Source: Paramacrobiotus metropolitanus
Lineage: Eukaryota > Tardigrada > Eutardigrada > Parachela > Macrobiotidae
Assembly: GCF_019649055.1 (NCBI RefSeq)
Contig: NW_026570297.1
Span: forward strand, 310,001-374,000
Reading direction: 5' to 3'
Length of the DNA stretch: 64,000 nt
Notes under the pieces: model-generated
The model's database searches: none
Seen by the model: the letters and a program-made list of their open reading frames with translations, nothing else
What the model was told of the DNA's origin: nothing
Program-made: the position numbers and the translations under genes
In this document: positions 728-42,623 of the stretch, piece after piece
How the letters are laid out: every line of letters begins with the position of its first letter
Numbering within the stretch: the first letter of the stretch is position 1

Positions 728-3700
728 CTACACAAAACACAAGAAAACACCGTGTTAATTCCCACAAACTAATCAACTGTAATTCCGAAAGCAGGTCAGC
801 AGTAAACGAACGCAACTGATTTTGAAATAGTCACTCACCTCGACAGGGGTCGTTCTTGACGAGGAACTCGTCCAGCGCCACCCATCCGCCTCCGACCCGC
901 ACCATCACCGTGCTGCGCAGAATGCGCACCAGCCGCAGCTTCTGCGACTCACCAAACTGCAACACAAAACACAACTTCCATCACCTGCTTACGTAGTGAG
1001 TTGCCTAACACGGCGTTTTCCAGCAAAAATTAGCTTTAAAATTCAACTCAACACAGTACTTTGATACTGTGAAGTGCAAACTGTGTGTACTGCAGTTAAA
1101 CTGGAAAAACTCCACCTGTAAATAGAAAAACCGCGACTTACGATATAGCGTCCCTCGCCGACATGCTGGACTTTGTAGTGGTGCTTGCAGGTGCAATTCT
1201 GCACTTGGAACGTCACCTCGTCCTCAATCTGCCAATAAACAACATTTTAACCGTTAATTTCCAGCTACGGGCTAAATAATTCTGATCCAACCTCCTTTAG
1301 TAACCAACCTTGTCGGCATCCGTCAGGTTCTGTGTGCTGCGCCAGTCCGGCTTTAGTGCGTGCACAAACTCGGGATAATCAACGAAGCCGTCCTTGTTCT
1401 GATCGAAAATATCCGCCACAATTTCCATCTCCAGCGGCGTTGTTTGGAAATCTACGTCGAAGAGAAAACAGACTGTCAGACTGCGCTGATTAACATACAT
1501 GGCACGATGCGGGAACTCACTGCTCTTCAGAATACAGTCGATAAATTCGTCACGTGTCAGTTTGCCGTCGGCATCACGATCCAGTCGCCGGAAAAAGTCC
1601 ATCACGCGCAGCTTCTTCACGTTCATAAATCGCACAAACTACAAAAGCAACTCGTCAAATAACGACAAAAAACTGACAACTTTTCTCAGGAGGTGAAAAA
1701 TTCCATTTTCTTGCTATCTCTTCTTATTTTTTAAACAGAAGAATCGTACCCGTCGACGCCAGTCATCAAACTGGAAATTCTGCAGTTTCTCCAGTTCCAA
1801 CACGTGCGCCAACTGCTCGGCCAGTCGTTCTCGCCGTTCAGCAGCCAGCTGCAGAACGTTCCTATTGCGGGTGAATAAATCCCTGGCCGCGTTATTCCCC
1901 ATCACGGCCTTCTCCTTCCTCCTTGCCCCCGGCGTCCGCCGTTCGGCTCCTCCTTCTCCACCATCAGTTTGCCCTGCGTCTGCCGCTCCACCGTGGCCTG
2001 CTTGGCGTACAGCTCTGTCTCGAACTCCTGATGCTCCTGGATCAAGCGTTTAACGGAGTCGAGTTCCTCCGGGAGGATCTCGCTGTGGGAGGCCACAAGG
2101 TTGGCCTCGGCGGAGAAGAACCACACCAGCAGCTGCTCCAGTTCCTCCGCTGACTTTTCCAGCGTGGTCATGTGCTCTTTCAGGCGTTGCTCGCGCTGCT
2201 TCATCAGCAGCTCCAGTTCCTGCCAGCGCGTACCTAACACTTTCAGCCAATGCCGCACCGTCGCCGCCGCGTCGGGGTGCGGTTGTGCCTGGATTTCCGC
2301 GCCTAATTCCATCGCGGTGTCGTAGTTCACTTGTCTGGCCTGCATTTCACCTGCACGAAGGAAAGAGCATTACTCTTTATTAGGCAATACCATGCCCACT
2401 TTAACAAAACGTCTACCATTTAAATGAATAACCTATTAAAGAATAAACAAAACAGTATTTACGTCCTAAAACAATTCAGATCAACAAAATAAACAACGAA
2501 ATGCTTATGCCCACTTTTCCTCAACAGAATAAAATAAGTAATAAAACAATTATGCTGATTTTTTGTTAACATAATACCACGCGTAATTTTGTAACAAAAT
2601 AAGTAACGAAATATTAAATAAAAAATAGTTTTGCGCGCTTATCGTTAGCAAAATAATTCCTGTCACTTTTTTCGGAACAAAAAGTGGAGTATAATAATTA
2701 TGTTCAAACGTACTTTGCTGTTCGTGGATTTCGAAGATGGCCATCTGGACCTCCTTGACGTCGTCCGGAAGCGCCCGGAAGACCCTGATCTTCATCTCGG
2801 TGGCGCCGAGCCACTCAATGAGCGAGTACAGCACCTGGTGGAATTCTACGGCGCAGCGCATGGCGTCGTTCAGCCGTTCGCGCCGCTTCCCGGCCAGCTG
2901 CCTCACGGTGTCCCACTTCCCCTCCAGCTCTTCCAGTTGCCGGGCCATCACGGCATCCGGCTCCGGGGTGCCGGCCAACAGTTCCTTAGCCGCTTTCTTC
3001 ACACTGGCAATATTCGGCGCCCGACTGCTCAGATCGTTTTCCACCGCCTTGAACTGCTCGTCCAACGCCTTCACCGTGTCCAGATCGCCGTGCACTTTCA
3101 GCGACTCAGCCAGCAGCGGCTCCAGCTTGGTCAGCCAGTCCAGCATGGAGGTCAGGGCGTCCTTCAGCTGCCCGGAGAAGAGCAGCGCCTCCTCCAACTT
3201 CCGTTGCCGTTCGGCAGATTTACTCCCCAGCGTCTTCCAGCGCTTCTGCAGCTCCACCAGCATATTCTGGATGGCCGTCTGCTCGCCCTTGGCGGCGCTC
3301 TCCTTCAGGATCCGGCCCATCTTCGTGATGCCGCTCAGCGCCGCCTGCTTACTGGCCATAGCCTTGACGAACTCCTTGTGTTTGGCCAACTGCGCTCTAA
3401 TCTTCTCCGGGTCATTCGGCACGCCGGTGACGCCGTCCAGCTGTTGTTCAGCGGCGTCGATCCACTCCAGCATCTCGGCGTGATGCTTGCTGAACTCCCG
3501 GCCCTCGGTGTAGGCGGTGTTCAGCGCCCGTTGGCGGTCGGCGGAGGCCGAGACCAGCTTGTCCCAGCGCTGCTGCACGCTGGCCAGCAGGTTCTTAATC
3601 TGCACAACGTCCTGCTTCTGCGAGAAGTACTTGAGGGTGGTGCCTTTCTTGTCGAGCGCGCCTTGAAGCGGTAGATGCTGCGACAGATCTTCCTGGAAGG

Positions 3701-6700
3701 TCTTGTGCTCCTCGATCTGCTGGACAATTACATCCAGGACGCGGGAGGGTGGTTTGGCAGCGGAAAGGCCTTTCTCGGCGTTGGTCAGCCACAGTGTGAA
3801 ACCCTGCAGCGATTCGTAGAATTCCACGGCGTCCCGCACGGCGATCTCCAGCTTAATCTGCACACGGCAAACAGCAAGTGAATTAACAGAAAATATATGA
3901 ATTTATGTATTTTGTTCTTAATTCGCTCATCTTTATTAATTTAAAAACAAAAGTATCATTTAATTTAAATTTATTTTTTCGCTGTCACAAAATGATGAAG
4001 GCGAAAAAGATTCCTTATTTCCGTCCTTACTTTGCGGTCATTGGCCTTTGTCTGGGCGGCTTCCCAGCGGTGTTTAAGGGTTTTGAGATTGTGATCCAGA
4101 CTGACGGAGTTGGCGTCGGGCGCCATGGTCAAATACTCTGCACCGCGGCGGAGGATCTGCTCCACCACGGCCTTGTTAGCCTCCAGATCGTTGTACAGCT
4201 CCTATTAAATTTCCAATGAATTACTTTCTTTGCACGACGACCAGAACGACGTTCACCTACCATGAAGTTTGCCAGCTGGTCTTTGGCCGTCTGCGGCAGT
4301 CCGCCCACCGGGCGCGATGCAATCAGATGCTGATCCTTGTCGGCCAGCCAGTTCAGCAGATCCTGTATTTCGTCTTGAAACGACTCCGCCTACAAAATAC
4401 ATTCATACAACCCCCATGTTACTTCGCAAAACATTAATAAATTTTAATAATATGACCGGAATAATTCTATTATGTAATTCCCTACCTCTTTGAGATGTTC
4501 TTCCAGGAAGGTTTGCTTAATGTCGGCCTTCTGCAGCAGCTGCTGCCACTTGAGATTCATGTCGTCCAGCAGCGCCGACGTAGACGCGGCGTCCTCCCCG
4601 CCTTCGCTCTCCTCGATGATCTGACTGCCGGCTTCGTTCAAGATGTCCAATGTCCGTTCGTTGGCGATCAGATCGTTCAGCAACACCTTCAACACGAATA
4701 CAATAAGCAAGATAAAAAAAAATAACAAAACCACATGCAACCGAAGTCTGCAACATACCTTGTGTTTGGCCAGCTCTAGTTCGATGATCTTAGGATCGCC
4801 CGAGGGGATGGTGTACTCATCCAGGCCCTGCTCCTTCTCCACAATCCAGGCCACCAGCTCGTCCAGGGCGTGCCGGAACTGTCCGAGATGCACCAGCGCT
4901 TCCTCCAGCTCCTTCTTGCGCTCGTTGACCTGGTCGTTGAGAGAGTCCCAACGCTCGCGGATCTCCTCCACCGGGCCCTGCACCACCAGCGCCTGTTCCT
5001 CCGACGTCTTCATAATCAACTCATCAGCCTGCTCAAAACAACCCAATTTAAAACAGATCATCACTGCAACAGCGTCAAAACACACCTGGGCAATTAGGGA
5101 CTCCACTTCGACGGTGTGGGGCTCCATGTGCGCCCGGAAGGCCTTCAGCTGCTCCATCTGCCGCTTCACCGCCTCAATATCCGCCCCGATGCTCCCCATC
5201 CCGGCCAGCTGGTCCTCGGCTTCCTCCAAGAACACCAGCAGGGACTGCAGCAGTCCGTGAAAGGTCATGGACTTCTCCATGGCCTCCACCAGGTCCGTGT
5301 CGCGCTGCATGAACAACTGCGTAATATTGCCCCAGGCGTGATCCAGATCCTCCATGTTCTTCTTCACTTCCGGTTTATCCGGCTCCCCGCACTTGACCAT
5401 CAGCTCCTGTCCGGTGCTGACGCACTGCTCATAATCCGGCTGCGTCGTCTGATTGAACTCCTCTTTTAATTCCTGCAGTGCATCCTGCTGTTTGCGGATG
5501 GTGTTGACTTCCACCGCCGGCGGCTCCTGACCCTGGAGGACCGCTTCGAACTCTTTGATCAGCGCTTGGACGTCCGCCAGTTCCTTCCAAAATTTCACCG
5601 AGATCTTGTAGGTATCTTCCAGCGAGCGTCCCCGGCGTTCCGTCTCCTTGAGGATGGTGTCCCACATATCGTCGAGGTTGGCCAGTTTATCCTGGATGGC
5701 GTCCACGGCCTCCCCGTCATCGGGGGTCCGCCCGGCGATCTTGGCTAGTTCCCCAGCGGCCCGCTTCGCTGATTCATACGCTTGTGACCGTTTCGCCAGA
5801 TCCGTAATCAGTTTATTGTTGTCCTCCATCTGTTTCTGCAGTTTCCCCGGCAGCGCCGAGATGGGCTCGCAGTTGGCTAGTTTATCGGCGGTGCTGTTCA
5901 AGGCTGCCAGGACACCGTCCAATTTGCGGAAAAACTGCTGGTGTAGTTGCTGTGTGCCGTTGGCATCCGCTGAGATGGGGAGATGCTCGCCGTCCTCGCC
6001 AGTCGACAGGGACTGCATTACGGAGTTAAGGGTGTTGTGGAATTCCTCCATCTTTTCGCTGGCTAATTTCAGCTCCGTCTCGCGGTTATTGGCACGCAAA
6101 GCCAGATTGGCTAACTGGTCCTTCATACCGTCGATCTGCTCGCGCCACGGCTCGGGATTACTGACGTAGCTGTTTTCTACCAGATCTTCCAGGGCTTCCT
6201 CAACATCATGAACCTGTACGCAAAAATATAATGTTATAAGAATCCTAAAACAAATTCCAAAAATCCGCGCCGCACCTCTTTAGCCGTGTCGTCAATACTT
6301 CCGACAAACTGGTCCATCTGCACCAGCTGATCCGTCAGCGTCTCCAGATCCTTCCCTTGCGGGCCCATATTGTCCAACTCGTCCTCCAGCTCGTTGACAC
6401 ACTGTTCTGTCTGTTTCAGTTCGTCCACAAACCGGCCCACCGCTGCCGTGGCCTTCTCCAGAAACTCCATGGTATCGGCGATGGAATTATCCAGGGAATG
6501 GTAACGCGTGCGGCTGGCCAGCAGCGCCTCTTCAATATGACTGACGTCCCCGTCTAACGCCTGCCCATCGGCCAGCAGCCCATGCCCCAGATCCTCCACC
6601 AGATCCATCTGGCGCTTCATGCTGTCCACGTCGTCCTTCAGCGCCATCACGCGGTCCATGGACTTCTGATCAAGCTGGCTGTCTTCCGCCTGCACCAGCT

Positions 6701-9700
6701 TCTCCTCCGCGTGGGCCAGCGCGCCCTGTAGCGTGGCCATGGCTTCCTCGTAGTCGCCTAGACGGTGGGCAATATCCTCCAGTGAGCGGGCCCGCACCAT
6801 GGTCTTCTCGTTGATCGTGTCCCAGCGCGTCTGCAGCGTGTCCACGGCGTCGCGCACCCCTTCCAGATCGGCTTCACAGGCCGTCAGCAAGGAACTGCCG
6901 TGCTGCTGCACGGCGTCTAGATCGCCGCTGTGCCCAGAAATATCGGTACGCAGATCCTGCACCTCCCGCACTTGATCATCCAATTCTTCTTGTCTGTAAC
7001 GAATTCACAACACCAATTATTCATCGCTCAGAGAACATAAGGCTGCGTCTGTCTATACTTGAATTTCGGTGGTTTGAATTCGGCAGCAATGTGCTCCGCC
7101 TTAGCCAACCATGGTTCCAGAACATCCACGGACACCTTGTAGCGTTTGGCCAGATCCACTCCATTACTGAGCTGCTTGTGCCGGTCCGACAGTTGTCGGT
7201 CGAGACCCGTCCACTGCGCCTGCATGGCGTCCAAGCGAGTGGCGGTGGCCGCGGGTAAGCGGCTGCCCAACTCCCGTCCTTGTTTTAAAAGGGCGTGCAC
7301 ATCGTATTCGCGGCGCGCCACTTCGCTCCGCACATCGTCAAAGGCCTCCAATTGATGGCTGACAACGTCCAGCAGCGCAGAGATCTGTCAAACGCTCTTT
7401 CCTAATACATTCTGCAAGGCCAACGACGTTGACGAGAAAACGTACCTTAACATCGGGTCGGACACGGTCGTCCATCAGGCGCAGCCATTTGGACAGTTCT
7501 TCGAAGGCCAGCTCGAATTCCTGCCCTTGTTTGACATTTCTTTCTAACCCGCTTCGTAGACTCTCACCGCGCTTCTGCAGATCAGCGTACTGCCGTTTAG
7601 CGGCGTCCAATTTGGAGTTGATTTCGCTGGAGATCACTTCGTTGTTCAGCACTTCACACAGCGTAGCCGCCGCGTTTTCCGTATTCTTGATCAGGTAGGC
7701 TTTACCACTGATTTCCGCCTCGATCCGGTCGAGTTCCTGAAAGAACAAACTCACTTGAATAACTGCTACTGTCAGAAGAGTCGTCGGCAAAGTTAGTAAG
7801 TTTCTGTTTCTGTTGCAACCGGTAAACGGCGAAAACAGTTAAGCTAACTCACCTGCAGCTGGTTTTGTGCACTGGATGCGCTATCGCCGTGCACAAAGTT
7901 CTCGTAGACCCTCTTCATTTCATCCAGCCATTCGTTCAGAGTCTGGCAGCTTTCGGTAAACACCTGGCTGGCAAAGCCAGCGTTCTCAATCTGCCGGCGT
8001 CGGTTCTCCAACTGATTGCCCAGATCCGCCCACAACTCATCCACCGCCTGCAGCTTCCCGAGCAAACTCTGCCGCTCGGACTCCTTGGTACGCTTCAGGA
8101 CCTGCTCCGACTCCTCGTGCAGTTTGTCGATAAGCGTGCGCTGACCGCCCAGTTCCTCCAGCAAGAGATCCACCTGTTGTTTCTGGTGCTCCAGCAGCGT
8201 CAGATCGTACGACACCGGTCCTACAATCAAATTTATCGTAAGCAGACCATTCGCCACACACAGTGACCGGTGTAGACTAACCTAGAACGGACAGCATCTT
8301 CTGCTTCTGCAGCAGCCAGCCATGTAGCAGCTCGCATTCGTGCAGGAAGAAGGACACACTGTCCAGCGCACGCATTCGATCGCTGCCGGCGCGCTTTAGC
8401 TCCTCCCACCGGTCCAGCAGTTTGTCCTGTTTGCCGCGCATTTCCTCGGCTTGATTATCCGTACGCAGCTGAATATCGCCATTGATGCCCACGAGGCGGT
8501 CCATCTGGTTCTGGAATTCACCCATCTGCCGTTCTAATTCTTCGAACCTAGAATAGAATCGAAATGCTTCAAGAATTCGCAAAAAAAAGGTTTTTCTATA
8601 AGACCTGCATCAGCACTGCAAGTTACACAAAGAAAATAAATAGTAAATTTCGCGCACTTTAATTCCATATTAAACTGGACATACCGTAATTTCGCCATTT
8701 CCAGGCTGTGCTTATCATTGGCCATTCCCTCGGCTTCGTTGATGTGTCGCTCGTGGACGCTCATCCATCCCGTGGCCTCGTCGTGATGGGCGTTGTAGGC
8801 TACGAGCAGCTCAACCAAGCACTGCAGATTCTGCTGTTTATTGCTCACTTCCGCCGTCAGCTGGTCCAACTGCGCCGTGGTATTAGCCAGCGCCGTCTGC
8901 AGCTCGTTGGATTGGGCGTAGATGGCCGGCGGAGTGCCGGACATGTGGGCGCGGTGCTCGTTGAGGAGCGCCGTCAGGCCTTTAGACTGGCCGCGCGCCG
9001 ACTCCACCTGGGTGCGCAGGGCACTGAGATCGGCGCCGCGGGAGGTCACCTGCTTCTGCACTTTGGCAATGTCCACCAGGGCGTCCTGGATAGAAGTGAC
9101 GCTGGAGAAATTGATGGGTTTGACGACGGACAGGCTGGCGCGACATTGCGACACCCAAGTCGACAGATCCGAGCACTGCTCGTCTAGGCCGGCCAGGGTC
9201 TGGCTGAAGGCTTCCAATTGGACAAGAACTTGGTTTGCTTTCTCTGAAAAGCATCAAATCATTAAGGAGATATATCCCCACTGCACTTAGCATTCATCAA
9301 TTACCTTTAAGAGAATCCGCGCGGGCTTTGCGCTGCAATGCCACCGGGTCGATCGGTGGATGGTACTGCACCTCGGCATCGACGGTTTTCTGCCCGTTGG
9401 TCTGCGTACCCACGAGCCGGTGGTCCGAGGAAGAGCCCCGTCGACCAGCCGAGTCCACCGCGGACGAGGCACCTGAATCCGTGGAGCCGCGGCGACTGCC
9501 GTTGCCGTTGGGGGCTCCAAAGTAGTACAGCCCCATGGACTGCTTATTCTTAGGACTGGCTCCGTCCGACTTGGGTTCGGTGCGTTGATGGGGTTCGGCC
9601 GAATGGAGAACCGGCTCCAGCGTACTACTGGAGCGGCGTCGATCGCCGTTCGCTTGCGGGGCACCCAGGTTATCGTAAGGAGAGCGACCATGCACGAGAT

Positions 9701-33966: not shown

Positions 33967-35767
33967 ATGTCGGCAATGTTTTATACAGCCTCTTTGGCTT
34001 TTCTCCTGTGTAGCTTCCAGTTAGCTACCTCTTCACCGTTAGGCTTTCGTGAAAACTACGAGGAAGATTTGGCTCAAGCTTTAAATGGGGGTTCCATTGC
34101 ATACGATCAGCAGCAAGCGCTTGACGACGCTTTAACGAGTGAAGAGCTGAGAGAATTGTACGATTCGGTGAGCGACGATAGTACTACCATTTCCCCAGCA
34201 GAAGAAACATTCACGGAAGAACCCGAAATAAGTACTGATGCCACATTCCCGGACAACCATGAGGAGACGGAAGTGACCGCCACAGAAGAAACCGTTACGG
34301 AAGCACCCGTCGAGGATGAGGAAGAAGACATTTTCGCAGGTTTTCAAACAGAATCACCGGATGAGGAAGAACCGGCAACGACAGCATCACCGGCAGATGA
34401 CGATGGTCTGGTTGAAACATTACCAGAAGAAACCGATGAAACAACTGAGCCCCCATTGGTGGACGACGATGAGGCAACGGAAGAGGCGGTAACAGAAGAA
34501 ACAGTTACGGCAGCGCCAATCGAGGATGATGACATTTTCGCCAGTGTTCAAACAGAATCACCGGATGAGGATGAACCGGCAACGACAGCATCACCGGCAG
34601 ATAACGATGACCTGGTTGAAACCGTCACAGAAGCCGTAACGGCGGCACCGGAAGAGGCTGCCGACGAGTATGATGAGGAAACATCCGCAACGGAAGTTGT
34701 TATTTTTCCGCATGAGGAAGTGGAGGCTACAACGGTAGCACCGGTTTCGGATGACGTCAGTGATGACGATGACACTGCGTTAATATTAATACCGCCGGCA
34801 CCAATAACCAATGATCACTTCCTCCCTAATTTGCCAGTGGTAATCGAAATTGCAGGCGACAACAATGAAGACAACTCTGGAGCAACTGCAACAGATGAGG
34901 AAGCGATTGCTACAACGGAAGCATCCGTTCCGGATGACGTCGGTGCCGACGATGAAGCTTTGCTCGGAACTATACCGGCCGCGCCGACGCTGAGGAATAA
35001 TGATGACTTTCCCCCTTGGGATTGGTCCGTCCGAGGGCCTTGGATTTATCCTGGCAGTCCGGTAGTTGATTTGACCAATACGGGTGACGAGGACTTATTC
35101 TCATCATTAAACAATACAATGCCATCAACCACTGCTGTGGAACCTCTTTGGAATCCAATGATGCCTCCGAACTTTGGATTGCATGAGACAGCGCGCATTG
35201 ACGATCTGAACATCCCTATGCCCACATTTCACTTTGCTGCGCTGCAACCTTTCGCCGGTAGTAGTTATGAAATGGACGTTGATTCGGATGCAACCGATAT
35301 GCAGCTGTCGTTGTTCTGGCGTCTCAACAGCGTGGCCAGAAAAGCATGCAATTCGTACATGTACAGTTTACCGACTCCACCGGAAATGGCCGGAAAACTG
35401 ATGACACTTCTGAAATCGGAGCTCCCGTTGTATAAATGGAATGTGTTCATCGGCTATGCTCTCCCGGACACACTGAAGGTAAATTAATTTCAATGACTGC
35501 ACAGTGTCACTTTGTCACTTACAAAATTTTTTTGGTAGAATTTTTTTAACTAAGCAGTGGATCGAAACTGCATATCTGTAGTATTATGACTGCGATATCC
35601 CTTAAAAGTGTAGTCGGATGTAAGAATTCGTCAGTATAATGTATTAACTGATTCTTATTTTGCAGTACACCTATCAGGGCCGTTATAAAGGAACCTGCAA
35701 TGGAAATACGTACTTCATCTGGTACAGCTACAGTGATACCGAAGCCACTAATAAGGACACTAACTAA
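33967..35767 (+). CDS. Secreted acidic repeat protein with C-terminal LC8-like domain
   Basis: Exons 33967-35478 and 35666-35767 (GTAAAT donor, TTTTGCAG acceptor, phase 0), 537 residues. The signal peptide is about residues 1-22 (MSAMFYTASLAFLLCSFQLA). Residues 30-400 are extremely acidic and Thr/Ala/Pro-rich, with two near-identical copies of a unit containing TESPDEEEPATTASPAD, also nearly identical in DNA. The last 90 residues (LNSVARKACNSY, LLKSELPLYKWNVFIGYALP, YTYQGRYKGTCNGNTYFIWY) align in order with LC8 dynein light chain (helices, then WHCIVG...F.YF), although LC8 is normally cytosolic. The same domain and intron position recur in the gene at 42.0-42.6 kb. An AATAAA overlaps the stop codon at 35766-35771. 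The LC8 relationship is inferred from pattern. Confidence 0.85.
34326..34630 (+). repeat. Internal coding repeat in the acidic protein gene
   Basis: Two copies of a roughly 75-base segment, starting TTTTCAAACAGAATCACC at about 34338 and GTTCAAACAGAATCACCGGA at about 34548, differ at only a few bases. The flanking acidic Thr/Glu codons are also related. It looks like a recent in-frame tandem duplication of about 210 bases. Confidence 0.8.
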
Positions 35768-35771
35768 TAAA

Positions 35772-36740
35772 CTGGTCTACATTTTAACCAAAATTTGATA
35801 CTGCACAGAAAGTACCATTCTGGCTCAGCTATTTAATGCCGCTTCCGGTGTATATTTTGGGCTTTCCTAGCTGTATGTGTTTCTATAATTGTTTTATAAT
35901 TTGATTCAGCCAAATTGCTCCTGTTACTTTTTGGCGGTACTGTGTGACGTACCGATTAGGCTTGTGTCGCTGTGATGGGTCTACAAAATTAGTATGAAGA
36001 AGAATGAATGAGCGCGAAAACCGATAGACAAAAGACTTACATATGGCCGGTAAAAACCGGAAGGAAAAAACTAAATATCCATGTAGCATTTTTATTAACG
36101 GAAACCGGTTCGTATTTTTTAAATTAAATGATAATCTGCATAATGCAGTGAAGAGGGGATATCCATCCACAATTTCCGTAAAGTTTTTAACGGATGCATC
36201 CATATGATCACGCATATATTGTACGGTACTGGAGCTGCAAAATTACAGTTGCTTGTACTGTAGTATAATTTTGCGGAAAAAAGCTGCAGTGAACATGCAG
36301 CTGCATGACTACTGAGTAGTACTGACTACTACCAAAACTAAATTACGTATGAATACATTTTCAGCGTGTATTTATCCAGCATTAAGTTAAAGGAATTTTT
36401 TGGGTATTGCACCGTGGCACTGGAAACGCCTATTACACACAAGTGCTGCATCAGTTGTTTTACAACAGAGCACCTTTTTGATGAAAACAATATTAAGTAC
36501 AGTCATTTTTAGGATAGTTAAATAAACGGGTTACAATACAGAATGACGATGCACATGATTGGGAACGACTTCGATGGTTGCCATTTAATAAGTATACATA
36601 CATAGTAAAACAGTATGCCTAATGGAGTTTGTTTTATTTGTCTGCGCCATAAACTACATAAATCTGGCAATGCCGTACTAAAATTATTGTTGTTATCTTG
36701 TTCTTGTATTACCGTGCAAAACAATGAGATAACTTAACGA
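35772..36740. other. Intergenic, nothing recognised
   Basis: AT-rich with short frames only. Confidence 0.6.
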
Positions 36741-36959
36741 CCAAAAACAAATCGATGTCTTTTTCGAGTAGCAATTATATAACTATGTAATATGTACAAA
36801 CAGATACCATCAAGTCTGACTGTATGCAATCTGCTCTGCGTTCATTGTTTTTATTCGCTCTCCAAGATAATATTTGTGCTGTTATACTCCAGATGCAATG
36901 TTCTAACATGTAAGGTCACATCAGCATTAGGTGGAAAACACAAGTACCGTTAAATTATA
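36741..36959 (+). repeat. 219-bp direct repeat, left copy
   Basis: Identical by eye, base for base, to 39523-39741. The pair brackets the retroelement remnant at 36960-39522. It is too long for a normal target-site duplication. Confidence 0.95.
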
Positions 36960-37176
36960 GGACAGTTAGCTAGCTAAGTGAAGTTAAATTCGTGGTAAAT
37001 TCCATGTACTTCTTTGTTTCGCGCAGGCTCAGCCCACTTTCTTTGTCATGCCTGGCGAATACGTGTTAGCTGCCGCCGACCGTGCACCGGCCCGATGCCT
37101 TTCGCATTCTGTTCCGATCAGTCGTGTTGTCGAGCTGTTGTTTATCATTGCGTTGATTAGCTCTCTGTTTCATTTC
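36960..37176 (+). repeat. Split direct repeat A1
   Basis: Starts GGACAGTTAGCTAGCTAAG. Repeated with small differences at 39176-39397. Confidence 0.9.
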
Positions 37177-38667
37177 AGCACTTATTTTCCTCAACAGTTT
37201 GATAAAATTAGAGAGTAATTCCACCTGTGGAATCGGTACATAATGCCTCCAGCCACCAGAAGCAAGAAGACGGCCAAAAACACCGAGAGCCCCTCGCCAA
37301 AAGTACCACCAAAACAGCGCCTGAAAAGCATCATAGTTCGCCCTGAACCATCTGGATCGAGTGAAGTTCAATTAGTAGAACCTACTCTTCAGTCTGTCCT
37401 TCAGCAGCAAAAACATCAGCAACAGCTGGACTCGCTGCTCGCCGTAATGAACTCAGCTGCCTCAAGCGGTGCGCCCTTGTCCCTTCGTCAAACCTTCAGA
37501 TCCAGCTTGGTGACGACTTCGGGAGAATCGTGCATCAGGTGGACTCCGTAAACAAGGCAGATGGCGGAAAACGCAAGCGCCGTAGAAATCGAGGTGAGAA
37601 AAGTGGTTCCTCATCCTCTGAACAGGACAGCGACAGCAATAGCTCGCCAGAGCGTAGCGCAGCACTACAGCGCCATGGCGACCGAGATGCTCGGCCGCTT
37701 AGGGCCACCAGTGCTGCAGCCATCTACGTCTGATTACTCTGTTCATCAGCTGCCATCGATTCCTGATAAAAAGCTACGAAAAACTGCTGGACGAGGAGTA
37801 TGTGGACTTCGATCTGTTGCTGCGGCGAAACAGGGTCGAGAAGCCCAAAAACTGCAGTCTAATCTGTCCTTTGTGGACGGGAAAATGACGCTCACCCTGA
37901 AGATGGCAAAGTCAGAATTGACTCGTTCGAGGCATGGGCAGGAGCCTTTCCGTATTTGCCAGCTACCGCATCACCGTCGCACCGATGTTATCTGCGAAGT
38001 TTTTTAAATATCTGGCCATTATTGCGTCGTACGCTGAGCGTGATGTCCCGACCGCTAACTGGCTTGGTACGACAGGCAGTTCCGTGCGTTTATTACCAGC
38101 CACCCGCGGGAGTACGATCTCTGGGCGCATCAGCACGAAGATACGTACATTGATTGTATCCAGAACCCGCTTGTACACGCGTGTAGAGCCGACTGACAAT
38201 ATTCGCCGCGTGAAGGAGCAAAGAAGGACGACGAATGCCGCAATTGTGGCATGGCTGGGCTTTATTAGCAGCTGCCCGCTGCCACGGAAGGGCAACCAGG
38301 TTATGGGCAGCCATCCAAAACGTCGCCGCCGCTGAAGGAGAAGTATGTCGCAATTTTAATTTCGGCAGCTGCAACGCCTGCAAAGCGCACCGGATTCACA
38401 CTTGTTTCGTGTTAGATTCCACCGGGCCGTCAACTGCACGAAAACCGACCCTTGAGGTGACACTGCCGGTGGATGCGCGTTCCCATGCGCCACGCCTTCG
38501 CCATCGCCGGACTGCTTGCCTGACTGTCTCCATAAATGACAAGATAAAACCAACTTTACGATGGCCGCATCGGTGTGCCTGAACCTGAACCCTACCCAGC
38601 CGGGCGCTGGTGATGTCATCACACAGCCGCTACCCTCAACACCTCGGGTCACCTCAACTTATAACCT

Positions 38668-39130
38668 TTACCGGACCGGACAGATTGTTTGGGGGCAGTC
38701 GGGCGAAAGTGGGTATCGGACACACGTCAAGGTGAGGTCGCACCTGCACTTCATTGTCGCATACGCCGCCGCGCCGACCTGCACCACCGCAAACATGTAA
38801 TCTCATCCGTCGCTACATGCTCATTCAGTCACAATCGTCGCTTAGGCACAATGCCACCGGACACTGGATGGATATCGCCGTTAGAACCGCTAACCAACTG
38901 CCTGACAGCGAAATCCAGCTGGACCGACGCTGGCGAAGCATCTGCCTTACTGGTACATTTCACCACACCGGACCACCTCCTATCGTGAACTCTTACCGGA
39001 CGGAGTAATTTGTTTTGGGGCAGTCGGGTGGAAGTGGGGATATCGGAAGCTCGAACCGGTGAGGTCATCACCTGCACCTTCGACTTAGCATATGCCGCCG
39101 CGCCGCCGACCTGCTCTACCCGCAAACGCC
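38668..39130 (+). repeat. B-type repeats of the retroelement
   Basis: Two related units of about 135 bp at 38668-38801 and 38992-39130 share GGGGCAGTCGGGTGGAAGTG and a GCCGCCGCGCCG tract. A third, short copy is at 39472-39512, downstream of A2. Confidence 0.8.
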
Positions 39131-39175
39131 CAATTACTTCCGCTGCTCTCATACGGAATTTCCACAAAATTTAAA

Positions 39176-39397
39176 GGACAGTTAGCTAGCTAAGTGAAGT
39201 TAAATTCGTAGTAAATTCCATGTACTTCTTTGTTTCGCGCAGGCTCAGCCCACTTTCTTTGTCATGCCTGGCGAATACGTGTTAGCTGCCGCCGGCCGTG
39301 CACGCGGCCCGATTGCCTTTCGCATTCTGTTCCGATCAGTCGTGTTGTCGAGCTGTTGTTTATCATTGCGTTGATTAGCTCTCTCCTGTTTTCATTT
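39176..39397 (+). repeat. Split direct repeat A2
   Basis: Second copy of A1, lying between two B-type repeats. Differences include GTGG/GTAG and small indels in the CCGTGCAC region. Confidence 0.9.
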
Positions 39398-39522
39398 ACC
39401 ACCCACCCACCCTACAAGGTGGCGTTTTATGTTATTGCTTTCGCAACTGTCCTGTTACTCAGTGCAATAAACGGGGGCAGTCGGGTGGAAGTGGGGATAT
39501 CGGAAGCGGGGGATATCGGATA

Positions 39523-39741
39523 CCAAAAACAAATCGATGTCTTTTTCGAGTAGCAATTATATAACTATGTAATATGTACAAACAGATACCATCAAGTCTG
39601 ACTGTATGCAATCTGCTCTGCGTTCATTGTTTTTATTCGCTCTCCAAGATAATATTTGTGCTGTTATACTCCAGATGCAATGTTCTAACATGTAAGGTCA
39701 CATCAGCATTAGGTGGAAAACACAAGTACCGTTAAATTATA
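39523..39741 (+). repeat. 219-bp direct repeat, right copy
   Basis: Exact duplicate of 36741-36959, immediately after the retroelement remnant. Confidence 0.95.
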
Positions 39742-40136
39742 TGACAATTTTAGTTTTATAAAATGCATATGCGGTAGTAATCAAATGCATATCGGAAATC
39801 CGATCAACCCGATCTGGGAGTGGTAGCACCGACAGTTCGAGGTGTCGATGCAATAAGAGATGCATCGCACTGGCTTTTGTTGATACGGAATACGCGATAC
39901 CGGTAGGTAAGCCTAAAATACAAATTATTTGTTAATAAAATATCTGCTTTTCAATAGAAACTGCACTTTCGTCCTCTCTTCCTCACGACATTACTTTGTC
40001 CGCTTGTCGCATTTAAGCTAGTGAAATCTTTTTCATGTACAACGAAGACGTTAATACTTACTACTTTTTAATATTATGACAATAGAGAAATCGAATAATT
40101 AACCGGTTTTCTTAAATCGCAATGGGATAACGAACG
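39742..40136. other. Intergenic, nothing recognised
   Basis: No frames or repeats of note. It may contain the true last exon of the gene at 40.1-41.4 kb. Confidence 0.5.
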
Positions 40137-41379
40137 TTAGATATGAGTTAGATAATCATTCGATGCGCAAATAACATATCTATCTGTTGTTATTTGTTTA
40201 TATCTATCTGTTCGCACGTACGTCACAGAGTTCATTTTTCCCGGATGGAACTTCGGCACACATTCGGCGACGGGTGACCACTGCGCCTCAATTTCCGACT
40301 CGGCCGCTTTACGGGTGATGGGGCACTGCCATTGGTTGATTTGGTCGTTATGGCTGGCAGGATCGTAATCCTCAGCGTACACTCGCAAAACCGCATCCTA
40401 TATGAAAATTAAAATTATAAGTACAGATTTCTGCTTGCAGAACCAATTACAATATATATGCCACATCTGTAGCATGTTGACCAACTGATTATGATTTATG
40501 GGAAAAAATGGTGACGCAACCCCTAATATTACATGAATCGCGTACTTTGTACGGTTTCGCACAGCTGTCTCGTTTTATCTTCTTGTTGATCAGCGGACTG
40601 TTAACATTGTCCGCTTCGAAAACCTGCGGCCAATATTCCACAGCCACGGCACCGGGCCACTCAGCGTTCGGTCGATCGCTGCAAAAAAACGGGGAAAACA
40701 ATTTAATCGAGGTCGAATAAACTAAAGTTATTATGAATTTATCATTAACATGTTTAAATATATGTCTTCGAAATCTTGATGTTTTTTGCCTGTGCCTCGC
40801 ACTGATCTAAAATGTGCCTTGCACTGATTTAAGTAAAACTCCTTACATTAACAGAGTTAGCAATATACTCCTATAGCATTAATGGATCTCCGGATCCACG
40901 TGGAAAAATCAAAAAATAATTTAATCAAATAATGTTTAACAATGATTTTAGCTAAAAAATTTATTAATTTTTTAGATGTTCTTATTATGTTAATTATAAT
41001 TGCTAAAATTTTAGTAACTACCGGCAAAATATTTATTAATAGTCTTACGTGTCAAGATGAGCAAAAACTCTGGGGTCACAAGCGCCGAAAGTATCACAAT
41101 AAGCATTATTGGCGGTCACTCCACCGTCATTTGTTAGTTTGATCAGTTCCGCTTCCACGCGGATGTACTGATCATTGGGATCTCCCAGATGGGCCGTGCC
41201 ACGTCCGCGTGTTGCTGCTCCGTATAATCGCTCGGCAAACGCCGTCGACAACACCTATAATAATATGAATTAAAAATTTTACCGTAACAGTCCAGATTCC
41301 CGTGTTTGGAATATAATGGGAATTGTTCGAAACATATCCAACGTACCAGACAGAGAGTAATTACCCCCAGATACCTCAT
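40137..41379 (-). CDS. Unrecognised secreted Cys-containing protein
   Basis: Exons 41379-41347, 41254-41049, 40678-40546 and 40397 downward, with phases 0, 2 and 0 matching at every junction. Exons 1 and 2 together make a good signal peptide (MRYLGVITLCL + VLSTAFA, then ERLYG). The mature part has conserved-looking Cys and turn motifs: NAYCDTFGACDPRVFAHLD, AEWPGAVAVEYWP, LRVYAEDYDP, NQWQCPITR and WSPVAECVP. The N-terminal pattern loosely recalls the C2-like MNNL fold of Notch ligands (CD-x-F-x-x-CDP, then LRVxAxDxD), but I would not assign it. The 3' end is unsure: the frame can run to a stop at 40137, or splice from a GTACGT donor at 40220-40221 to a short unseen exon. About 200 residues. 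Confidence 0.7.
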
Positions 41380-41453
41380 TTCCGTAAAATTTTCTGGCTT
41401 TTTGATGCTTTAAGAAAACTTACATTGAGAAAATAGGAAAATCCAGTCTTACA

Positions 41454-41662
41454 TGTCGTTGGGTGCACGGCCGTGCGAACTGTTAAGTGCACGCAATTGT
41501 CGATCATTATCGATCAGGACGACCTTTGCCTTCACTTTCGCATAAAGGAAACCAGCCTTCTTGTGTGAATCATCAGGCGCTAATTGGCCGGAAGAGGGTT
41601 TGCTTCCGCGTGCTTCCGTGAAACCAAGATTATGCAGAAACTTCCACTCCACTAAGCGTGCC
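41454..41662 (-). other. Orphan exon-like frame related to the downstream gene
   Basis: An open frame reading SSGQLAPDDSHKKAGFLYAK followed by VKAKVVLIDNDRQL ends at a GTAAGA donor (41452-41453) in phase 2, the same phase as exon 41254-41049 next to it. The spacing of D, G, hydrophobic and ND positions resembles that exon, but the Cys pair is missing. It could be a duplicated or mutually exclusive exon, a paralogue fragment, or chance. No start or acceptor could be fixed. Confidence 0.3.
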
Positions 41663-42009
41663 AATTGACTTACAAAATTTATTACCGGTAAACCTTTCAG
41701 GAATTACTTCGCAGACTGTTTAATCTGTATGCGCCGGAAAACAAATGAATCCATTTGAAAGTACAAAATAAAAATCAGAACCATACTAAGCGGTTGAATG
41801 AATGTTGAATTTGCATTTAAATGCAGTAGTTTTTTCGTTCCTCCAAGATTCAAACCATAAAATTAAATTTCAATGAGATTTCTACAGACAGCAAACAATC
41901 CAGGAACGCCGGAAGAAGTACTTGTTGGTTGAACATGATTGTGCTTCACATGATTATAAGCAGGACTGTATCTCAGAATTCTTTTAAGTAATTAAAGTCA
42001 GTCGACAAA

Positions 42010-42623
42010 TCAGGGTCGAGAATTGAACCATACCGCATACTGGTTCTCGTTGCAGGTTCCTCTGTATCGACCTTGGTATGTATACTGCAAAGAGCACATT
42101 TCATCATAACTACATTGGCCACAATGACCTCATGAATAAAGTTTTTACCGTTAAAGACTGTGGTATTTCTTCCCCGACATAAACATGCCAGTAATAATTT
42201 GCATACTCCTTCTTCAGCTGCTTCTTTAAAGAAAGGGCAATTTCCCGCTGCGAGGATGCCGGGTACCGGTTGCAGGCCTGCCTGACCACGTTATCCATGG
42301 TTAGTACCATGGACAGCTTCATCACCGTCTTCTCCATATCGGCTACCGGCCGGTGCTGGGTGGTGCTGTCGGTGTCCGGTGCTTCCGTGGCATGCGTAGG
42401 CAGGTGTCCCATATCCATGTCGCTGTTGGCTTCCCCATCCGCATCCCATTCACCCACTGCATTTCGTATTGTGCGTATTGCTGAAACACAGCATCAGAGT
42501 TTTCGCCTAACAAGTAAAGCAGAAACAAGTAAAGCAGTTTTTACCGGTTGCAGCACTGGGATGCAGAAGTACACTGCAGCACATCAGTGACGATAGCAGA
42601 ATCAGGAAATTATGGATATACAT
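42010..42623 (-). CDS. Small secreted protein with LC8-like domain
   Basis: Exons 42623-42545, 42480-42149 and 42084-42010 (phases 1 and 0), 161 residues. The signal peptide is MYIHNFLILLSSLMCCSVLL up to about residue 25. An acidic linker follows, then a domain with DNVVRQACNRYPASSQREIA, LKKQLKKEYANYYWHVYVG and, across the last intron, YTYQGRYRGTCNENQYAVWF. It is a paralogue of the C-terminal domain of the gene at 33.97-35.77 kb: the YTYQGRY-x-GTCN motif is shared and the intron falls at the same place before YTY. The fold-level match is to LC8 dynein light chain (WHxxVG core); secretion would be an unusual setting. The role is unknown. Confidence 0.85.

Follow-up and report, generated by a model that had tools for sequence, protein, structure and literature searches.

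LC8, the dynein light chain that serves as a hub protein inside cells, is highly conserved, and domains of its fold usually form dimers via main-chain contacts made by a crossed-over strand. The flatworm tegument-allergen-like proteins (TALs) constitute the best-known expanded family of LC8-like proteins. In the parts of the published accounts available for comparison, the TALs studied are without a signal peptide (PMC3317908, PMC5372573, PMC8141160, PMC9336510), some of them are liberated by cercariae and cultured worms (PMC3317908), and a tapeworm protein with an LC8-like domain is reported in cyst fluid (PMC3510090). The liberated TALs and the cyst-fluid protein count against a strict novelty of LC8-like proteins outside cells. 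The present analysis concerns a 64,000-nucleotide stretch of the genome of the tardigrade Paramacrobiotus metropolitanus (contig NW_026570297.1, positions 310,001 to 374,000; hereafter the window), which carries two genes, referred to as A and B, whose products bear signal-like N-termini and a C-terminal LC8-like domain. The open-access literature matches listed for LC8, TALs and tardigrade secreted proteins contain, in the portions available, no description of a secreted LC8-like tardigrade family, and to our knowledge none has been described before.

Genes A and B are best explained as belonging to a secreted family that has the LC8 fold, probably extracellular dimerisers with an internal disulphide, a reading to which a probability of about 0.7 is assigned. 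According to this explanation, an LC8-type gene would have acquired a signal-peptide exon, joined by a phase-1 intron in most members, and would have given rise to a dozen or more loci in the present genome. A pair of Cys residues, the first near the end of helix 1 and the second where strand one of the last hairpin ends, would form an internal disulphide stapling the helix to the sheet, and the resulting domain would act as an extracellular dimeriser that pairs two long acidic chains in the case of gene A and is present as a near-minimal version in gene B.

The two genes are convergent. Gene A (plus strand, 33967-35767, 537 amino acids) has two exons, 33967-35478 and 35666-35767, separated by a GT-AG intron, and its product consists of a signal-like N-terminus, an acidic arm and the C-terminal LC8-like domain. 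Gene B (minus strand, 161 amino acids) has three exons, 42623-42545, 42480-42149 and 42084-42010, with GT-AG introns, and a short linker connects its signal-like N-terminus to the LC8-like domain. The features of the two genes are as follows.

33967..35478, plus strand: gene A exon 1, with the putative signal peptide, a long acidic Thr/Asp/Glu-rich region and the start of the LC8-like domain (open frame, GT-AG intron)
33967..34029, plus strand: putative signal peptide of gene A, about 21 amino acids (rule-based test)
34147..35166, plus strand: acidic region of gene A, by composition (residues 61-400 are 29% Asp+Glu and 13% Thr)
35284..35478, plus strand: LC8-like domain of gene A 5' of the intron, with helix 1, helix 2 and the strand with the invariant Trp
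35347-35349, plus strand: first conserved Cys codon of gene A
35479..35665, plus strand: phase-0 intron of gene A
35666..35767, plus strand: gene A exon 2, with the YTYQGRYKGTCN hairpin
35696-35698, plus strand: second conserved Cys codon of gene A
42545..42623, minus strand: gene B exon 1, with the putative signal peptide, followed by a phase-1 intron
42149..42480, minus strand: gene B exon 2, with the linker and the LC8-like domain up to the intron (the domain runs from 42352 downwards)
42274-42272, minus strand: first conserved Cys codon of gene B
42085..42148, minus strand: phase-0 intron of gene B, at the same position as in gene A
42010..42084, minus strand: gene B exon 3, with the YTYQGRYRGTCN hairpin
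42054-42052, minus strand: second conserved Cys codon of gene B

The C-terminal domains of A and B, of about 90 residues each, are 43% identical, and in both genes the final intron is of phase 0 and is followed by the segment YTYQGRYKGTCN (A) or YTYQGRYRGTCN (B). The gene models thus agree with an earlier reading made from the letters of this DNA (hereafter the sequence-only reading), which had claimed a common C-terminal domain interrupted by a phase-0 intron at one place; the KAC/QAC and GTCN motifs noted there are likewise found in both genes. Over the first 22 codons of the final exon, synonymous change between A and B is saturated (14.7 differences over 12.5 sites) with 0.22 nonsynonymous substitutions per nonsynonymous site (dN), indicating that purifying selection maintains the final-exon motif, which does not stem from recent copying.

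The complete genome (169.8 Mb, 533 contigs) was examined with protein and pattern searches followed by reading of the loci; the locus counts are lower bounds, because scoring in the search is confined to the best candidates. The helix-helix exon was identified at no fewer than 14 loci, at least 12 of them in addition to A and B (C7, C9a, C9b, C37, C68a, C68b, C98, C123, C154, C218a, C218b and C238), and two further loci, C218c and C9c, are represented by the final exon only. Paralogues with signal-like N-termini, for which a search had been suggested, do exist. Wherever a whole gene could be read, it consists of a signal-like start, the helix-helix exon, the phase-0 intron and a final exon with the conserved Cys, the final exon of C98 lying about 650 bp beyond exon 2. 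Members show 19-43% identity to B, and contigs C9, C68 and C218 carry clusters that include apparently broken copies.

In the C9 cluster (414-421 kb), C9a is accompanied by C9b, which has apparently lost its donor GT, and by C9c, a third final exon, which contains an in-frame stop. Exon 2 of C218a (contig C218, about 66.9 kb, minus strand) is open save for a TGA that falls exactly on the codon of the helix-1 Cys; its donor looks normal and its final exon is open. For C218b a final exon was not found. C218a, C218b, C9b and C9c may all be broken copies. Selenocysteine at the TGA of C218a was considered; Rfam, searched permissively with the 9.7-kb locus, listed three weak unrelated hits and no selenocysteine insertion sequence (SECIS), and a broken copy is favoured for this locus.

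The exon architecture is shared to a large extent. The signal-like stretch forms a separate exon with a phase-1 donor in B, C68a, C7, C98, C123, C154 and C9a, the acceptor of C123 not being fixed; C238 has a weak donor after the stretch, C68b a phase-0 intron within it and gene A no intron after it, and no signal exon was identified on reading the C218a and C218b loci. The intron within the domain is of phase 0 and lies 11-17 residues past the invariant Trp in all 11 members for which both borders were read (A, B, C7, C9a, C37, C68a, C68b, C98, C123, C154 and C238). The genome's own LC8 also has a phase-0 intron, 11 residues past the Trp (GSY|VTHETK).

Similarity to LC8 was detected with several sequence search methods. 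The full protein of gene B matches the Pfam family Dynein_light (PF01221) with an expectation value (E) of 5e-6, and its domain alone with E 1.4e-6 and 29.0 bits, the cut-off being 29.1; NCBIfam gave weak unrelated matches only. A phmmer search of B against PDB sequences returned 19 matches at E <= 10, all of them dynein light chains (best E 0.02). A family alignment and profile, designated A2, was constructed from nine of the 14 loci (without C98, C9b, C37, C218a and C218b); in its C123 row, as in that of the alignment used for the helix-2 reading below, the exon junction may have one surplus Val. C98 had been used, in shortened form, in an earlier alignment, A1, and in one genome search. Against PDB the A2 profile obtained 28 matches, the first 25 of which are dynein light chains. 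When A2 was compared by hhalign with five LC8-type sequences (the genome's own LC8, its divergent C6 locus, yeast Dyn2 and two others), a score of 31.1 was obtained (probability 74%, P 2.8e-5), whereas the highest of 200 column shuffles scored 19.9 and the reversed profile 10.0. The LC8-like pattern proposed in the sequence-only reading is thus corroborated by profile similarity from Pfam, from the A2 search of PDB and from profile-profile comparison.

Structure prediction points in the same direction. Single-chain AlphaFold2 models, each built from a two-row alignment, have a predicted local distance difference test value (pLDDT) of 72.3 and a predicted template modelling score (pTM) of 0.62 for the B domain (elements H13-29, H35-49, E53-59, E73-79 and E82-90), and a pLDDT of 79.3 and a pTM of 0.73 for the A domain (H8-23, H32-46, E50-56, E70-76 and E79-87). 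In Foldseek searches of PDB, LC8-type chains rank on top for both models (best E 1.8e-4 for B and 1.3e-3 for A), and the matches listed, 50 per model, are without exception either dynein light chains or chains from entries of dynein or the axoneme; the structural alignment of B with LC8 shows about 20% identity. With VIA-align the best Z is 11.2 over 82 residues for the B model and 9.1 over 85 residues for the A model, for which canonical LC8 reaches 8.4. Fluke LC8-like domains rank below LC8 chains among the matches of the B model, and Tctex-type chains, which were also considered, rank lower, with Z values of 6-9, below LC8. Neither model has a different fold; both resemble LC8, B more strongly, and the A and B domains are predicted to adopt the LC8 fold.

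Several of these results weigh against the proposed relationship. None of the nine members tested attains the Pfam cut-off, the best (B) falling 0.1 bit short, only two of the nine match Dynein_light at all (Pfam, E <= 10), and gene A has no Pfam match of any kind. The E-values of the A2 profile against PDB are modest (best 0.0066), where the genome's own LC8, taken as a yardstick, retrieves 45 dynein light chain sequences from the whole PDB set at E <= 0.001. The hhalign probability is just 74% with the five LC8-type sequences and drops to 15.9% with a single LC8 sequence. The A model has no Foldseek match at E <= 0.001, and as a best Z of 7-8 is typical in VIA-align for models without a clear match, the values of 8.4-9.1 for A barely exceed that range and make A alone a weak case. 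Further, alignments of the family with LC8 span the first 60-70 positions or so and end ahead of the last hairpin, the sole alignment to reach it being a weak phmmer match of B (9y6s_6U, E 0.91); the link of the second-Cys region to LC8 therefore rests on the fold prediction and the exon structure. The low identity of B to LC8, these modest E-values and the Z values attained even by Tctex-type chains would suit a likeness without common descent, in which no more than a small alpha/beta arrangement is shared. That explanation is nevertheless very improbable, as the sequence profile, the Pfam match and the column-shuffle control concur and the domain intron matches that of the genome's own LC8 in phase and almost in position.

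The most strongly conserved positions of the family include those proposed to form the staple. Across the nine members of A2 only three columns are invariant, one of Trp and two of Cys. Of the 14 loci, 12 have the helix-1 Cys, the exceptions being C218a (TGA) and C37 (Asn), and the second Cys is present in all 15 final exons read, a count that is partly by construction because several final exons were found via the motif itself. At the first site the five LC8-type sequences have Leu, Met or His. In both models the first Cys is located close to where helix 1 ends and the second close to where strand one of the last hairpin does (B: C27 within H13-29, C79 within E73-79; A: C22 within H8-23, C76 within E70-76). 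The sequence-only reading had suggested that the two Cys could form a disulphide; their co-conservation across the family supports such a bond, and from the presence of exactly two Cys in mature A and mature B we infer that an internal disulphide is likely in both.

Some members fit this less well. In C37 the usual column of the helix-1 Cys is occupied by Asn, with a Cys eight residues earlier, and extra Cys occur in C68b, C98, C238 and C9b, the last with CNGC in its final exon. Such displaced and additional Cys, together with retention of the Cys pair while most other positions have changed, would also fit proteins that are LC8 relatives but in which the Cys make intermolecular disulphides, bind metal or perform redox chemistry. 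This alternative is considered unlikely, though it deserves some weight, since A and B have just two Cys that are distant in sequence, and both residues are at the ends of predicted elements that adjoin in the LC8 fold.

Secretion is suggested by the N-termini. A simple home-made signal-peptide rule was passed by all 11 family N-termini tested, A and B included, and by 67 of the 636 control ATGs in the window, a contrast that is flattered because the family N-termini and start exons were picked by eye, so that it serves as supporting evidence and not as proof. The genome's own LC8 fails the rule, and C37 has a candidate signal exon outside the 11 tested. The signal peptides claimed earlier for A and B are thus matched by signal-like stretches at both N-termini, and the two proteins are apparently secreted. 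The passing control ATGs and the choice of start exons by eye would also be compatible with hydrophobic N-termini that are uncleaved, either membrane anchors or wrongly picked exons, the proteins then not being free outside the cell. This is quite improbable, in view of the uniform result for the 11 N-termini, the occurrence of the stretch as an exon of its own with a phase-1 donor in seven members and the conserved Cys pair, which suits an oxidising compartment.

In the parts of the relevant reports available, LC8-fold domains are described as dimerising by main-chain hydrogen bonds even with differing interface residues (CsTAL3, PMC5431922; FhCaBP4, PMC12347358). Since domains of this fold usually dimerise, the likeliest role of the family would be that of an extracellular dimeriser. 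A stapled, secreted, dimerising domain bearing arms of different kinds is the simplest proposal, a tentative one in which the chances of the dimer step are put somewhat below even. The residues of the LC8 client groove at the start of helix 2, which we take to be E35/K36, are apparently not kept: the residue right before helix 2 is Lys or Arg in two of 13 members (B and C37) and Glu-Lys occurs in none of the 13, as judged by eye in a column made uncertain by loop insertions. Classical LC8 client binding is therefore doubtful in most members.

The acidic arm of A contains a 112-nt internal direct repeat (88%; 34318-34429 and 34522-34633), the copies of which encode FQTE and VQTE stretches, and the two Q-T/V-D/E sites of A sit in these two copies. 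VQTE was considered as an LC8-client motif and found unconvincing, the shuffle test giving 0.07 for one or more such motifs and 0.04 for two or more Q-T/V-D/E sites. A long shot is that the family would be an equivalent of the LC8 hub outside the cell, with disulphide-locked dimers cross-linking other secreted chains and, in A, perhaps also the protein's own acidic arm with its VQTE stretch, whereby A could build up extracellular chains.

A possibility to be taken seriously, though it too is held to be improbable on balance, is that the proteins are fast-changing gland, immune or reproductive secretions in which the stapled LC8 fold is a stable scaffold for varied surfaces and no dimers are formed. 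It would account for the strong divergence of the members from B, the clusters with apparently broken copies and a ratio of nonsynonymous to synonymous substitution (dN/dS) of about 0.5-0.6 between C238 and C9b. The contacts of LC8-fold dimers are, however, described in the available part of one report as main-chain and sequence-independent (PMC5431922).

Candidate sites other than the above members were also recorded. A pattern search with the final-exon motif gave 14 sites in the genome and eight in the reversed control; nine of the 14 belong to the family, C8 and C272 were rejected after reading of the loci, and C15, C30 and C70 had no match in any family protein search of the genome. C135 was rejected as repeat-like DNA and C9:421117 for a stop inside the final-exon motif, and C26 and C9:740457 are candidates outside the family count. 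A 413-amino-acid open frame on C21 (about 541.5 kb) has a 38-residue weak match to the helix-helix exon profile (E 0.35 in the genome search; 19.9 bits and E 4.4e-5 in a small open-frame set), and the final-exon motif was not found in the part of the frame read. The genome search with PF01221 also gave the canonical LC8 (C113) and the LC8-like loci C2, C6, C40, C49 and C54.

The window has a guanine-plus-cytosine content of 44.2%. About 6 kb separate A from B, and some 3 kb of this gap are occupied by a transposon-like unit (36740-39749) with outer direct repeats of 228 nt (99%) and nested direct repeats of 136 and 71 nt (97-100%). A minus-strand frame at 41045-41254 with NAYCDTFGACDPRVF may resemble a Notch-ligand N-terminal region, and several long minus-strand open frames of up to 611 amino acids at 1905-9253 may resemble a spectrin/dystrophin-type gene.

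Among the known systems, the Tctex-1/DYNLT chains share a related overall arrangement with the family and differ in scoring below LC8 in structure comparison and in being absent from the PDB matches of both phmmer (B) and the A2 profile. The flatworm TALs (SmTAL, CsTAL, FhCaBP) resemble the family in their lineage-specific expansion, in the C-terminal location of an LC8-like domain within larger proteins and in structure (VIA-align Z against the B model of 9.7 for FhCaBP2 and 8.7 for FhCaBP4 and CsTAL3), but carry EF-hands N-terminal to that domain, whereas a Pfam scan of B, the A domain and residues 1-505 of A showed no EF-hand. With LC8/DYNLL (PF01221) the family shares the predicted helix-helix-strand-hairpin fold, the profile similarity, the D-M...M and A...Y positions of helix 1, the Trp ahead of the next strand and a near-identical phase-0 intron site. 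It differs from the cytosolic LC8 in its signal-like N-terminus, in its linker or long acidic arm and loop insertions, in the replacement of Leu29 by Cys, in a Cys near position 78 (a position taken from the predicted fold) and in a best member that scores marginally under the Pfam cut-off. As this near miss is combined with apparent secretion, the designation of an LC8-like branch is preferred to DYNLL proper, and the view of A, B and their relatives as an LC8-fold branch that has moved into the secretory pathway is largely supported, with the function suggested for it remaining conditional. If correct, an exported, Cys-paired, dozen-gene LC8 lineage would represent a route from an intracellular dimerisation domain to an extracellular building block, and would provide a natural set of LC8 variants released from the constraints imposed by dynein and by clients.

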